Source: an archaeon
Lineage (GTDB): Archaea > Thermoproteota > Nitrososphaeria > Nitrososphaerales > Gagatemarchaeaceae
Direction of reading: 5' to 3'
NCBI GenBank assembly: GCA_016432545.1
Contig: CP066694.1
Coordinates: 1,054,001 to 1,118,000, forward strand
Length of the DNA stretch: 64,000 bases
Positions 24,965 to 44,821 of the stretch are shown here, piece after piece. The notes beneath the pieces are model-generated. The model had not been told where the DNA came from. It saw only the letters and a program-made list of their open reading frames with translations, and made no database searches. The position numbers and the translations under genes were made by a program. The first letter of the stretch is position 1. Each line of letters starts with the position of its first letter.

Positions 24965-25057
24965 GCCGCGGTAGCTCAGCTGGTTAGAGCGTTGCCTTGG
25001 TAAGGCAAAGGTCGTGAGTCCGAACCAAAGTGTGCGGAAGTCCCACCCGCGGCTCCA
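24965..25057 (+). tRNA. tRNA-Thr(GGT) with T-loop intron, CCA encoded
   Basis: Acceptor GCCGCGG/CCGCGGC, discriminator U and an encoded CCA (25055-25057). Anticodon arm TTGCC, TTGGTAA, GGCAA gives GGT. The T-arm becomes GTGAG, TCCGAAT, CCCAC when 16 nt (25025-25040) are removed. The helix TCCG/CGGA with flanking 3-nt bulges AAC and AGT forms a bulge-helix-bulge, like the T-loop intron of the tRNA-Met on the opposite strand 100 bp away. Confidence 0.85.
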
Positions 25058-25488: not shown

Positions 25489-27744
25489 TTACTGCAGGCC
25501 GGGGCTCCGGCGCCTCTCGTAGAGCGAGAGCAGGCCGCCGGTCGTCCTCCTCGGGTCGAAGGGCTCGAGGACTGAGGCGCAGGTCGCCGCGAGGAGCTCG
25601 ATGTAGCGGCGGGCGTCGTACTTCGTCTCGTCCTTGATTACGTCGACCGGCGTGGCCCGCTTCGAGTCGTGGCCCCTGTAGTCTGTGATCACGTACCGTA
25701 TCCCTTCGCCTGCGTGCAGCTGGGCCCCAGCCCCGACCAGCTGGTCGACGGCCGCACGCTGGACCGTCATGCTGCTGTACTCCTCGGGAGCCTTGGAGAG
25801 GTTGGTGGTGAATGCGAGCTCTGAAGCTGGGATCTCGTGGCGCTCGAGCGCTCCTGCTGTCCTCAGGAAGACCTCTGCGCACTCAGGAACCTTGGCCTGC
25901 GCTGCCTGGACCGAGTCGGCCTCGGCCAGGACCCTGAGGATCTCCATCTGGCAGCGCGCGAAGGCGAGCGGGGTGTCGTGCCGCCGCGCCTCGATGCCCC
26001 TGACCTTCAGCTCTCCGTCTTCGTAGGCCCCGAAGTACCTGTTGAGGACCGGGATGGCGCTGTCGACCTTGGAAGGGAGGAAGGTGACCCACTTGTAGAT
26101 GCCTTCGAAGGACATCGCGAACCCTGTCTCCGACTCGATCTCGGCCTTCAGGTCGAGGTAGTCGTCCCGGTCGGCCCTCTCTCTCTTGACCCAGAGGGAG
26201 TCCACGATTCCGTGGATGACCTCGAAGCCACGCCTCTCTGCGACCCGGGCCGCGTCGAGGAGGACCCTCCTGTCCCAGGCGCAGACTGCGATGTGGGCGT
26301 CTATGCGCCCGAACTTCGCGTTGTTGAATCCGAGGTACCCGAAGGTCGTGACCCCGAGCCACTTCAGGGCCGCCTGCCTGGCGTCGTACCTCTCGTAGGC
26401 CTGGCCCTGGGCCGACTTCTTGAGCTCCTTGTACCTGAGGCGCTTCTGCACTATAATCTCGATAGCGAGGGGGACGATTCCCTTCCTCCGCTCGCAGACG
26501 TTCCAGTCGAGCTCAGGGACCCTGTTCTTCGAGTCGGGGCAGCAGGAGCACCTCACCGTCTCGGCCGAGAGGTTCTTCCTGAGCATTATGTTCGGATAGA
26601 GGCCGGAGAAGTCCAGCTCCCCGACGTCTTCGTGGACGCCCATCCTCGGCTCGTAGATGAAGCCGCCCCGGTCGGCCAGGAGGAGCTCGTTCCGGTCCTT
26701 GAAGTGCTCCACCAAGGTCGGCTTCCAGGGGACGAGGAGGTCGATCTTCGTGGCGTGGTAGAACTGGAGGCTTGAGAGGGCCTTCCCGATGCTCGCCCTG
26801 CTCGAAGTCTGGAGGGGCATCCTGCAGATTCTGCTCAGCTCGAAGAGTCCCTCGAAGCCCGCTTCGGAGTAGGCGAACGAGGTGTTGACGTCGATGTGGA
26901 TGCGGCCCTTGAGCTTTATCGAGGAGGGCTTGTAGTGGATCTTGCCGTAGCTGAAGTAGGAGGTCCCGCTCTTAGAGGGGACCTTCATGAGGCCCCCGTC
27001 CCTGTCGAGGGAGAGCCTCTCAGCCACTCCTGCCGCCTCGGCCCGCCTGATGAGGTACGTAAGCAGGAAGGAGTCCCCGTCCCTCGTCGTGATGAAGTCC
27101 GGGTCGGCAGAGCGGACGGTCTTGACCAGCTCCAGAATCATCTCGGCCTCGTCGGAGCTCTGGATGACGACCTCCCCTGAATCGCTCCTGAGCTTAATCG
27201 CCTCGACCCTGTCGGAAGGCCTCGCCAGCTTCCCCTCCTTCGCTATCTCGACGTCCAACTCCACCTTCCTCAGGTTCGGGATATCGTATTCGTAGGCCCA
27301 GACGTCGTCGCGGAGGTCCCACTGGAGCCTGCCCCCCGAGGACGAGACTTCGCAGTAGGCGAGGGGGAAGAGGTCGCGCTCGTAGAGGTACGTCTGGTTG
27401 GGCGGCACGTCGGCGTTGTAGAGCCTGTAGGCGCCGAAGGGTCCGAGGCGCTCTATCCTCCCGGCCACCTGCTGGGCCCTGCGCGCGTCCTTCAGCTTCG
27501 CCTCGACGACCTCCGAGCGGGCCCTGTCCGTGACCTTCTCGTACTTCATCACAGTGTTGGTCCAGGCCAGTTCGTGGCCGACCACTCGGAGCGGGACCGC
27601 GAGGTCTGTGCCGCGGTCTGCGCCTATGAAGATCGAAGGCGACCAGGAGTCGACGAGCCTGGCGACCGAGCCGTCGTCCAGCTTGAGCCAGACGACCATC
27701 TCCCCTGGCTCGCCAGGGCAGAGGTCAAGTATCCAGCCCCGCAT
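25489..27744 (-). CDS. B-family DNA polymerase with degenerate motif C (PolB2-like)
   Basis: 751 aa. Exo I-like LDVEI is present, but the usual Exo II NxxxFD reads GDSFLLTYL. Motif A is DFSGLYPNIM (D378) and a motif B region follows (KWLGVTTFGYLGF). Motif C, normally YGDTDS, is HGIVDS (511-516), so the first catalytic aspartate is isoleucine and only D515 remains. The pattern recalls archaeal PolB2 (Dpo2), a divergent, damage-linked polymerase in Sulfolobales. The N-terminal about 130 residues fit the uracil-recognition region of archaeal PolB only loosely. Last gene of a four-gene operon and overlapping the previous gene by 20 nt. Whether it polymerises is open. Confidence 0.8.
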   Translation of the reverse strand: MRGWILDLCPGEPGEMVVWLKLDDGSVARLVDSWSPSIFIGADRGTDLAVPLRVVGHELAWTNTVMKYEKVTDRARSEVVEAKLKDARRAQQVAGRIERLGPFGAYRLYNADVPPNQTYLYERDLFPLAYCEVSSSGGRLQWDLRDDVWAYEYDIPNLRKVELDVEIAKEGKLARPSDRVEAIKLRSDSGEVVIQSSDEAEMILELVKTVRSADPDFITTRDGDSFLLTYLIRRAEAAGVAERLSLDRDGGLMKVPSKSGTSYFSYGKIHYKPSSIKLKGRIHIDVNTSFAYSEAGFEGLFELSRICRMPLQTSSRASIGKALSSLQFYHATKIDLLVPWKPTLVEHFKDRNELLLADRGGFIYEPRMGVHEDVGELDFSGLYPNIMLRKNLSAETVRCSCCPDSKNRVPELDWNVCERRKGIVPLAIEIIVQKRLRYKELKKSAQGQAYERYDARQAALKWLGVTTFGYLGFNNAKFGRIDAHIAVCAWDRRVLLDAARVAERRGFEVIHGIVDSLWVKRERADRDDYLDLKAEIESETGFAMSFEGIYKWVTFLPSKVDSAIPVLNRYFGAYEDGELKVRGIEARRHDTPLAFARCQMEILRVLAEADSVQAAQAKVPECAEVFLRTAGALERHEIPASELAFTTNLSKAPEEYSSMTVQRAAVDQLVGAGAQLHAGEGIRYVITDYRGHDSKRATPVDVIKDETKYDARRYIELLAATCASVLEPFDPRRTTGGLLSLYERRRSPGLQ

Positions 27745-27991
27745 TCCTCTCGGCCTTGATCCTCTCTACTTCGGAGGCAAGCCAGACGATGGTCTTGTGC
27801 TGCACCAGGAGGAGGCTCATGAAGAGGGCCTCGCTGGGGAAGGGGGATTCCCTGGCCTGCATCGCTGGGAAGTATTCGTAGCAGAGCCTGAGCATCTCCC
27901 TGAAGAGGTCCCTGTCCTCTGCGCGGAGGACGTCCGCGAACCGGGCCCAGGAGTCGAGCTCCTCGATGATCTCGACGTCGGTGAGCGTCAT
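27725..27991 (-). CDS. Small helical protein of PolB operon, paralog A
   Basis: 88 aa, all helical. An ungapped alignment with the preceding gene product matches W, F, L, DR, F, ML, Y and A at the same spacings (SWARFADVLRAEDRDLF here, EWRPFRRALSKGDRAVF there), so the two are tandem paralogs. Starts with a 4-nt ATGA overlap and runs 20 nt into the polymerase gene. Probably a subunit or adaptor of the polymerase complex; inference from operon structure. Confidence 0.65.
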   Translation of the reverse strand: MTLTDVEIIEELDSWARFADVLRAEDRDLFREMLRLCYEYFPAMQARESPFPSEALFMSLLLVQHKTIVWLASEVERIKAERNAGLDT

Positions 27992-28254
27992 CTGCCTTCC
28001 TCCCGGGCCGTCTCAGAGAGCGCCCCCGCGGCGCGGGCGATCAGCCTGTAGTGGTGGAAGATGACGGCCATGGCCATCCCCTCGAACCTAGACGACCTTA
28101 CCGCGGCCGACGAGGCGGAAGTGTAGAGCCGAGCCGAGGTGAGCATCTGGTCGAAGACGGCCCTGTCCCCCTTCGAGAGGGCCCTCCTGAAGGGCCTCCA
28201 CTCCGAGGCCTCCTGCGCCTCTGCTATCCTGAACGATGGGATCGTCCGGCCCAT
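27988..28254 (-). CDS. Small helical protein of PolB operon, paralog B
   Basis: 88 aa. Its ATG overlaps the stop of the RecA-like gene (TGATG), which fixes the start; the longer upstream frame is a shadow of that gene. Residues 19-55 align with the following gene product. Helical and positively charged in the middle (SSRFEGMAMAVIFHHYRLIARAAG). Part of the four-gene polymerase operon. Confidence 0.65.
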   Translation of the reverse strand: MGRTIPSFRIAEAQEASEWRPFRRALSKGDRAVFDQMLTSARLYTSASSAAVRSSRFEGMAMAVIFHHYRLIARAAGALSETAREEGR

Positions 28255-29195
28255 CAGCGCACCGGCCTCCGGTCCAGCCTGAGAAGCTGGCTCATCTTGA
28301 ACGTGCACTCGATGGGAGGCCTGGTCCTGTGCTTCACGAGCTCGGCCCTTACCCGCCCCCTCGATGCGGAGAAGCTGACCATCGTGTCGGCCCACGAGGC
28401 GACCAGCTCGTCGTATTTGTTGGGCGAGCCGAGAGTCGCCAGGACGAGCGAGTTCTTCTTCGTCTTCGCGATCCCCTCGTCGACTGCCGCGAGGATCCTC
28501 CTGGCCTCCCTCTCTTCGAGCTCCGGCTCGTTGAAGGTCCCGAGGACGTCGGAGAGGACCACGAGCCCCGCGGCGTAATCGTCGGCGGCCCTGAGGAGGT
28601 GCTTGGAGACCAGGTCGGCGAGCTGGTAGAATGTGAAGATGCGGCAGCTGGCCACCCGCCTCATCGCGGTCGCAGGCTTGAGGCGCCGCTGCCTCGCGAA
28701 GGAGGAGAAGAGGTACGGGTCGGAGTTGTTGCCCCCGTCGATGAAGAGGACTGGCGAGTCGAGGCCTCCCTGCTCGAAGGGAAGCTGGGCCCTGAAAGCC
28801 GCCAGCTCCGCGACCGCCGAGGCTGGCGCGCCGTCGAGGACGACGAGGCTCCCGGAAGAGAGAGGCCTGAGCATCGAGTCCAGGCGCGGGAAGCCGAGAG
28901 AGAAGTGGGGCAGCGAGGAGGCAGGGCGGAAGTTCTCCTGCCTCCTCCGGACGGGAACCTGAGCGCTCAGATAGATGTCGGACCAGTCGTCGGGAATCGG
29001 GGCGAGCCTGCACTCTATGTTCCCCTCGAGGGGTCGCCCGCAGCCGAGGCAGCGGCCCTCCAGCGAATCGATCGTCTCGCTCGCCAGTCCCAGCTCGCGC
29101 CTGACCCTGAGGACGCAGCTGCAGCTCGCGCAATAGTAGACGAAGCGCTCACTGCCGGTTCCTTGCTGTTCGTAGAGATAGTGAAGTCTCGACAT
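28254..29195 (-). CDS. RecA/RadA-like protein with zinc motif, degenerate Walker A
   Basis: 313 aa. An N-terminal zinc module (YYCASCSCVL ... RCLGCGRPL, two CxxC) precedes a RecA-like core: FSLGFPRLDSMLRPLSSGSLVVLDGAPASAVAELAAF occupies the Walker A position but lacks the GK[ST]; SPVLFIDGGNNSDPYLFSSF and GLVVLSDVLGTFNE (Walker B region) follow. ATP binding is therefore doubtful. First gene of the operon with two small paralogs and a divergent PolB. A GTTAAATCC box at about 29219-29228 makes the ATG leaderless. The arrangement parallels bacterial ImuA-type RecA-like partners of error-prone polymerases. Confidence 0.7.
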   Translation of the reverse strand: MSRLHYLYEQQGTGSERFVYYCASCSCVLRVRRELGLASETIDSLEGRCLGCGRPLEGNIECRLAPIPDDWSDIYLSAQVPVRRRQENFRPASSLPHFSLGFPRLDSMLRPLSSGSLVVLDGAPASAVAELAAFRAQLPFEQGGLDSPVLFIDGGNNSDPYLFSSFARQRRLKPATAMRRVASCRIFTFYQLADLVSKHLLRAADDYAAGLVVLSDVLGTFNEPELEEREARRILAAVDEGIAKTKKNSLVLATLGSPNKYDELVASWADTMVSFSASRGRVRAELVKHRTRPPIECTFKMSQLLRLDRRPVR

Positions 29196-29328
29196 CGCGA
29201 TGATTGGCTTGCTCCGGGGATTTAACGCGGGAGACAGGCGCGCGGCGTCTGGGCCGGAGGGAGACGCCCGAAAGTGATGAAAACCTCTTGCAAGATTATT
29301 AATCGAAGGAATGGCTCGCCGAGGCTGT

Positions 29329-29413
29329 GCGGGGGTCGCCCAGCCTGGTCAACGGCGTGAGGCTCAGGACCTCATCCCTTAGGGGTTCGAGGGTTCGAAT
29401 CCCTCCCCCCGCA
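29329..29413 (+). tRNA. tRNA-Leu(CAG), intronless
   Basis: 85 nt. Acceptor GCGGGGG/CCCCCGC, discriminator A; anticodon arm TGAGG, CTCAGGA, CCTCA with anticodon CAG; type II variable arm; T-arm GAGGG, TTCGAAT, CCCTC. No encoded CCA. An ATTATTAA box lies at about 29296-29303. It is the only tRNA in the window without an intron. Confidence 0.95.
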
Positions 29414-29433
29414 CTACGAAGAGGATGAGACCT

Positions 29434-43639: not shown

Positions 43640-44821
43640 CTAGACGGTCCTGCCGAAGGTCGTGTCCTCGGAGAGTGTCTTCTCCAAGGTCTCGCTCGGG
43701 ATCAGCAGCTGGATCCGCTTCGTCCTCCCCCTGCGCCCCTTGCTGACGACCGACGCCTCAATCAGGCCCAGGAGGTCCAGCTCCGCCAGTATCCCGCTGA
43801 CTCTCCTCTGGGTCAGGACCTCCATCCCCGCCTTCCTGCATAGGTCGTTGTATGCGATGTAGAGGTTCCCGGTGTTGGTCCCTCCTTTGAACCTCGAGAC
43901 CGCCATGAGTATCACCTTGTTGTGGACGGGCAGGGACCGGATCGCCTCCTCAACCCTGTCGTGCTCCATCTTGTCGGAGGCCCTGCGTATGCACGAGTCG
44001 TCGATCTCCCTCAGGCCCTCTCTCTCTGCGACCTCGCCAGCGATCCTCAGGAGGTCTATGGCCCGCCTCGCGTCTCCGTGCTCAGACCCCGCCATCGCAG
44101 CGCAGATGTTAATCGCCGCCGGCGAAGCCACTGAAGGCCTGAACGCGACCCTGGCCCTCTCCGTGAGAATTTCCCTCAGCTCCTCCACAGTGTAGGGCGG
44201 GAAGACGAGCTCCTCTTCGCTAAGGCTGCTCAGGACCCGTGGGTCCAGGCCTTCCTTGAACTTCAGGTCGTTGGATATGCCCACGAGGGACAGGAACCCA
44301 GGCGCGAGCCTCTCGCTGGACCTCGTGAACTCGTAGAGTATCCCGTCGCCGAATGTCTTGACCAAATAGTCGATCTCGTCGAGAACCAGGACCGTGTGAA
44401 TGCCCCTCGCTTTGATTTCCCTGAAGATCCTCGACACGACTTCCCCGATTGACAAGCCCGTGAAGGGTATCTGGACCCCGGTGGCTTGGCCGAGCTCCGC
44501 CAAGGCCCTGTATTCGGTGTTGGCAAGCCGGGTGTTGACATAGGCCACGATGAGGTTCTTCCGATCGGCCTCCTTCTCGAGTTTGGAGAGAACGTACCTT
44601 GCGACAGCGGTCTTACCTGTGCCGGTCTTTCCGTAAAGCAACAAGTTAGAGGGCTTTGATCCGTGAAGAACTGGAGCCAGGACCTCTGCGACCTCGCTGG
44701 TCTGTGAGTCACGAAAGGGCAACCTGTCTGGGACGTAATCCGGACTCAAGGCGTTGCGGTCAGCGAATAGGGCCTTTCCTTCCTTCGCTCTTCGGAAAAT
44801 CTCCTCAATCCCGGCAGGCAA
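43640..44821 (-). CDS. cdc6: Replication initiator Orc1/Cdc6
   Basis: 393 aa. AAA+ domain with Walker A YGKTGTGKT (K70), Walker B LVLDEIDYL, sensor I ISND and sensor II region EHGDARRAIDLLR. The C-terminal about 90 residues form the winged helix that binds ORB repeats. TTG start. It reads away from a 520-bp intergenic region with ORB motifs, the usual place of an archaeal origin. Confidence 0.95.
   Translation of the reverse strand: MPAGIEEIFRRAKEGKALFADRNALSPDYVPDRLPFRDSQTSEVAEVLAPVLHGSKPSNLLLYGKTGTGKTAVARYVLSKLEKEADRKNLIVAYVNTRLANTEYRALAELGQATGVQIPFTGLSIGEVVSRIFREIKARGIHTVLVLDEIDYLVKTFGDGILYEFTRSSERLAPGFLSLVGISNDLKFKEGLDPRVLSSLSEEELVFPPYTVEELREILTERARVAFRPSVASPAAINICAAMAGSEHGDARRAIDLLRIAGEVAEREGLREIDDSCIRRASDKMEHDRVEEAIRSLPVHNKVILMAVSRFKGGTNTGNLYIAYNDLCRKAGMEVLTQRRVSGILAELDLLGLIEASVVSKGRRGRTKRIQLLIPSETLEKTLSEDTTFGRTV

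Follow-up and report, generated by a model that had tools for sequence, protein, structure and literature searches.

Four genes that overlap head to tail on the minus strand of an archaeal chromosome raise the question of which system they form, as they combine a RecA-like protein, two small proteins and a B-family DNA polymerase with an altered active site. They occupy positions 29195-25489 of a stretch of 64,000 nucleotides (contig CP066694.1, assembly GCA_016432545.1; the whole stretch is hereafter called the window), which belongs to a complete archaeal chromosome of 1.50 Mb, and the host is presumably a terrestrial thaumarchaeote of the group I.1c type. It is highly probable, in our estimation, that this Nitrososphaerales archaeon possesses in the cassette a PolB2 mutasome, i.e., a damage-tolerance extender polymerase accompanied by iRadA, an inactivated RadA-like protein, and by small PPB2 proteins (Table 1). 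Judged by its sequences, the cassette is a system of an already published kind, which was described by Makarova et al. in 2014 (PMC4104785) and modelled by Timinskas et al. in 2025 (PMC11791011).

The four overlapping genes had been delimited in a sequence-only reading of the window and were recovered as such; its description proved right in all that the letters alone can show. Successive frames overlap by 1, 4 and 20 nucleotides, and their translation is therefore very likely coupled.

Affiliation of the polymerase and conservation of the operon

In Pfam the polymerase was matched by DNA_pol_B (E 8e-26) and by a degraded exonuclease domain (E 5e-12), while its best NCBIfam models were those of type-B polymerases of 665-717 amino acids, which scored well above DNA-polymerase-I (PolB1-type) models but stayed below their own cut-offs. 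None of its best sequence matches in PDB was named as PolB2. In an IQ-TREE analysis of 75 PolB rows, anchored by 1s5j for PolB1 and by 5mdn and Pyrococcus/Thermococcus polymerases for PolB3, the window sequence fell into the PolB2 clade (support 99/92), which was identified by motif and operon, with PolB2 from no named culture, and stood apart from PolB1 (100/100), PolB3 (100/99) and a separate DxD group (100/100). The likeness to archaeal PolB2 biology asserted by the sequence-only reading thus became membership by tree, motif C and operon, and the phylogenetic comparison with PolB1, PolB2 and PolB3 proposed there was answered in favour of PolB2. The only other PolB of the genome is a PolB1, whose best solved match is PolB1 of S. 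solfataricus (1s5j, E 7e-184).

The first aspartate of motif C had been reported as lost, and the comparison with the genome's own PolB1 agrees (HGIVDS vs YGDTDS). Across PolB2 relatives of the order the motif reads HG[IV][IV]DS, with HAIVDS in a few and HCIVDS in one, and HGIVDS is almost invariant through Nitrososphaerales, Bathyarchaeia and Methanomethylicota; HxxxD in place of YxDTD is the published signature of PolB2 (PMC8764526). The separate PolB group from the same order (L043-L049) mostly displays an intact DxD in motif C (YADTDS, YGDVDS; KGHTDS in one), and in several of its loci one or two RadA-like genes adjoin.

Conservation of the operon was followed in 61 loci with PolB2-profile matches, a hit-selected set that includes one PolB1 control and several members of the DxD group and does not give population frequencies: 41 of the 61 have two PPB2 genes and 47 a neighbour matching the iRadA profile. 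The order iRadA-PPB2a-PPB2b-PolB2 is kept in most of them, and since some 40 loci with orthologues of all four genes came to light, the cassette is far beyond chance, which settles the question of a conserved four-gene order raised by the sequence-only reading. Purifying selection acts on each of the four genes (pN/pS 0.13-0.38 vs four relatives). Four loci (L159, L160, L171, L174) present an altered order, in which a GRT-type PPB2 copy is followed by iRadA, PPB2b and PolB2.

In the exonuclease domain, Exo II has FL for FD, and the DxE of Exo I is present here and not conserved in relatives; as read from these motifs, the proofreading site is lost. D358 is invariant and R359 occurs in at least 90% of 20 sequences. 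The C terminus, TGGLLSLYERRRS, resembles a PCNA-interacting peptide (PIP) box without its glutamine, as judged by eye. In close relatives, PolB2 is split by in-frame inteins of about 370-540 amino acids that sit in motifs of the active site: in motif B (after residue 466) in L041, L042, L088 and L092, and in motif A (after residue 380) in L090. The intein domains were confirmed in L041, L042 and L090.

Such losses could mean that PolB2 is catalytically dead and the complex structural or regulatory, for example occupying stalled forks or capping RadA filaments. The first motif C aspartate, the Walker A lysine of iRadA and the exonuclease residues are gone, and PolB2 was long predicted to be inactive (PMC4104785). 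However, Dpo2 of Sulfolobus islandicus, which misses the same aspartate, does work as an extender polymerase, one devoid of proofreading (PMC8764526), and the second aspartate of motif C is kept across the PolB2 clade, as are motifs A and B. Because inteins favour active sites and those of the relatives target motifs A and B, an active enzyme is suggested. Taken together, we regard a dead polymerase as improbable.

iRadA and the two PPB2 paralogues

The similarity of iRadA to Rad51/RadA is weak in sequence (Pfam E 0.0017; PDB RadA E 5e-5) and clear in the predicted fold (AlphaFold predicted local distance difference test, pLDDT, 86; Foldseek E 1.7e-15). Alignment with active RadA revealed that the Walker A lysine is gone (GAPASA for GEGKT) and the Walker B aspartate replaced, in line with the RecA-like protein without P-loop lysine recognised earlier. 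In close relatives, FIDGGN, CRxFTxYQL and FNEPE show strong conservation. A canonical PIP box was not seen at the iRadA C terminus, where the conserved segment FxLxQLL seems to belong to the RadA core.

The sequence-only reading called this protein zinc-bearing. Two CxxC knuckles stand within its first 60 residues, at the place where the helical N-terminal domain of RadA would stand, and among 34 relatives C22, C25 and C49 hardly ever vary. We infer from this pattern that iRadA binds zinc. A pattern search for CxxC-N10-40-CxxC detected the pair in 18 of the 29 loci that come from named Nitrososphaerota and have two PPB2s; the 21 Bathyarchaeia searched all lacked it. The word zinc is absent from the main text of the modelling study (PMC11791011).

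Neither small protein was matched by Pfam or NCBIfam, and Foldseek returned no significant match for the model of PPB2b. The two 88-residue proteins detect each other in iterated searches, and profile-profile comparison (probability 98.5, E 1.6e-15) upheld their description as tandem paralogs. MGRTxPSFRxA is nearly invariant in relatives of PPB2a, whereas the MGRT arm is absent from PPB2b in every relative aligned, which fits the published rule that in duplicated PPB2 operons one copy only carries MGRT (PMC4104785, PMC11791011). Timinskas et al. proposed that one monomer of a PPB2 trimer inserts its arm between PolB2 and iRadA, and mixed and pure trimers were modelled with about equal confidence (PMC11791011). 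Held loosely, PPB2b may occupy those positions of a mixed oligomer that lack an arm. Nearly all Nitrososphaerales that retain the operon have the duplication; in Bathyarchaeia PPB2 is single.

Further observations concern PPB2 elsewhere. In Nitrososphaerales archaeon TH5894, PPB2a and PPB2b are fused in a single open frame (L148:2363-2944), for which a sequencing error is possible. Two extra PPB2 homologues, L205:8125-8418 (+) and L255:7632-7880 (-), lie outside any PolB2 operon in the genome studied here (at about 1471124-1471417 and 1455647-1455855, respectively). One adjoins pilus-type (T2SSE/T2SSF) genes, the other genes that it has in common with relatives (L256, L258, L261) and that resemble an integrated element. 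Copies of the extra type are kept in the relatives G059, G169 and G187, which gave no PolB2 match or only a weak PolB match; G169 and G187 are incomplete.

Promoter region and genomic surroundings

A TATA-like GTTAAAT lies so near the iRadA start that a leaderless transcript is suggested. Farther upstream, some 80 nucleotides ahead of the start codon and about 43 nucleotides before the TATA-like TTAAAT (at -25 to -30 in the related loci), stands the box CACTTTCG, which occurs upstream of iRadA in 12 of 13 related loci, its CACTTTC in all 13; in 200 shuffles of the upstream sequences, an 8-mer was never common to more than two of them. A divergent tRNA-Leu uses the same upstream region, but in the aligned upstream sequence of L055 no tRNA was seen there and the box is kept. 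The box contains ANTTTC, to which Orc1-2 binds in the damage response of Saccharolobus (PMC9738581), and it is offered as a lead to such an element only. Genome-wide pattern searches yielded just two sites of the form CACTTTCG-N30-48-TTAWAT, the second of which precedes a small zinc-finger-like open reading frame divergent from a pilus-type ATPase. As a regulon marker the box was rejected on account of these two sites and of negative controls at orc1 and nre.

The genes flanking the cassette encode tRNA-Leu, DUF1697, a prolyl oligopeptidase and PNPOx. A tRNA-like gene at window positions 24965-25056 (+) reached 28.9 bits in Rfam against a cut-off of 29 and was missed by ARAGORN; its T arm is seemingly split by about 17-20 nucleotides, possibly an archaeal tRNA intron.

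From gene neighbourhoods and arORC2 linkage in Euryarchaeota, Makarova et al. raised the idea that such operons act in replication initiation or origin control instead of lesion bypass (PMC4104785), and the window does contain an orc1/cdc6 gene about 15 kb from the cassette. This role is nonetheless very improbable, for no orc gene adjoins the cassette, the genome holds a replicative PolB1, and the genetics of S. islandicus, whose Dpo2 is damage-inducible and responsible for targeted mutagenesis, speak for a part in mutagenesis and in tolerating damage (PMC7390963). One PADLOC match to PolB and the PPB2-like genes in regions resembling integrated elements might suggest that the genes belong to a defence island or to a mobile element that has integrated. 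This was rejected as next to negligible, since the PADLOC entry is a homing endonuclease of 1671 positions in which only polymerase sequence was matched (residues 467-717), its model being read as containing a host polymerase extein, and since the flanking genes are ordinary and the locus, to judge from its sequences, broadly follows the phylogeny of the order.

Table 1. Positions of the cassette genes, their segments and nearby features in the window.
Feature	Position	Strand	Remark
iRadA, 313 amino acids, RadA/Rad51-like, with zinc ribbon at the N terminus and inactivated ATPase site	28254..29195	-	
Putative zinc-ribbon segment of iRadA, C22xxC25 ... C49xxC52	29040..29132	-	Four cysteines suggest zinc binding
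Degenerate Walker A of iRadA, GAPASA	28815..28832	-	GEGKT/S in active RadA; from alignment
PPB2a, arm-bearing PPB2 (arCOG07300-type), 88 amino acids	27988..28254	-	
PPB2a arm MGRTIPSFRI	28225..28254	-	Insertion between PolB2 and iRadA predicted (PMC11791011)
PPB2b, armless PPB2 paralogue, 88 amino acids, three helices	27725..27991	-	
PolB2 DNA polymerase, 751 amino acids	25489..27744	-	
PolB2 motif C HGIVDS, residues 511-516	26197..26214	-	Ile for first Asp of YxDTDS
PolB2 D358-R359, D(K/R) motif	26668..26673	-	Contact of PPB2 arm according to PMC11791011
PolB2 segment before D358, invariant LxPWKP	26674..26739	-	Where a Rad51-like motif that binds iRadA has been proposed; role by position from PMC11791011
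TATA-like GTTAAAT	29220..29226	-	25-31 nucleotides before iRadA start codon
Upstream box CACTTTCG	29269..29276	-	Conserved in genus; contains ACTTTC (ANTTTC)
tRNA-Leu	29329-29414		Divergent from iRadA; upstream region common to both
orc1/cdc6 gene	43706-44770		

Proposed action and comparison with known systems

In the PolB2 mutasome as we propose it, transcription would start just upstream of iRadA and may be raised by DNA damage. PolB2, devoid of proofreading, would extend mismatched or lesion-distorted primer ends, for which the motif A aspartate and the second motif C aspartate may provide sufficient metal ligands. A RadA core unable to hydrolyse ATP, iRadA would dock on PolB2 in the place of a filament neighbour and, together with the PPB2 oligomer, keep the polymerase seated at primer ends that carry damage. 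PPB2a and PPB2b would build a small helical oligomer, with the PPB2a arm MGRTxPSFR wedged between PolB2, iRadA and DNA; with PPB2b in the armless positions, the asymmetry of single-PPB2 systems would be fixed in genes. Translesion role, polymerase activity and complex formation are here projected from work on Sulfolobus and from published models, and the PolB2 complex with its arm contacts is itself a computational model (PMC11791011).

Several points weigh against this proposal. No activity, expression or complex data for this lineage were found in the literature. The genome has two matches to Y-family polymerases (PF00817), which leaves PolB2 as one of several candidates for translesion synthesis, and the notion of a sole translesion polymerase was rejected on these grounds. 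Several Nitrososphaeraceae (L035, L037, L038, L052, L083 and others) hold PolB2 without detectable adjoining PPB2 or iRadA, and no recognisable partners were found within 3.5 kb upstream of these solo genes; the partners are therefore not always adjacent or needed. The most reliable modelled complexes contained a trimer made solely of the arm-bearing copy (PMC11791011), which, as we read it, would favour a homotrimer and count against a mixed PPB2 oligomer. With regard to damage control, ANTTTC is absent upstream of both orc1 genes of the genome, and ACACTTTCG, which precedes its nre gene, is absent in nine relatives with a correctly read nre frame.

A more far-reaching version appears rather doubtful: an obligate four-protein machine of the Nitrososphaerales, with a one-armed PPB2 heteromer arisen by duplication, a zinc-ribbon iRadA as DNA- or partner-binding module replacing the oligomerisation domain, and ANTTTC-type control shared with Sulfolobales.

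With the cassette, the PolB2 mutasome is firmly established for mesophilic Thaumarchaeota of soil and groundwater, where the PPB2 duplication is near clade-wide. Arm-bearing and armless paralogues make the proposed asymmetry of one arm per complex cleanly accessible to genetics, and with zinc ribbon and promoter box the published model gains specific points that can be tested.

With eukaryotic Pol zeta the cassette has in common a B-family extender polymerase without working proofreading, but the subunits of Pol zeta are Rev7, Pol31 and Pol32. The parallel to bacterial ImuA-ImuB-DnaE2 drawn by the sequence-only reading is a loose one: a RecA-like protein is indeed encoded alongside a mutagenic polymerase, but that system pairs a C-family polymerase with ImuB as Y-family scaffold, whereas the polymerase here is of the B family and the cassette lacks any ImuB-like dead Y-family subunit, although no search was aimed at one. 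In the literature the PolB2 mutasome is likened to E. coli Pol V (UmuD'2C-RecA), the analogy being that of a polymerase, a small oligomeric subunit with inserted N-terminal arm and a RecA-family protein (PMC11791011); Pol V differs in its Y-family polymerase, active RecA and unrelated small subunit, as opposed to the B-family enzyme and dead RadA found here.

The polymerase of the Dpo2 operon of S. islandicus belongs, as its motif and its neighbouring genes show, to the same group, and it likewise has isoleucine for the first motif C aspartate (IID there, IVD here). Dpo2 differs in being thermophilic and in having a single PPB2 in the published description, and damage induction was measured there. 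Closest is the published PolB2 mutasome (PMC11791011, PMC4104785), with which the cassette shares the three families, the order iRadA-PPB2-PolB2, HxxxD, the dead ATPase, the MGRT arm and D(K/R). It deviates in the zinc-ribbon iRadA, the near-universal PPB2 duplication among operon-keeping loci and the box CACTTTCG; no report of the iRadA zinc ribbon, the near-fixed duplication, the PPB2 fusion, the CACTTTCG box or extra-operonic PPB2s was found in the literature. Zinc ribbon, near-fixed duplication and promoter box are lineage-specific additions to a known system, worth reporting as such and not as a new class.

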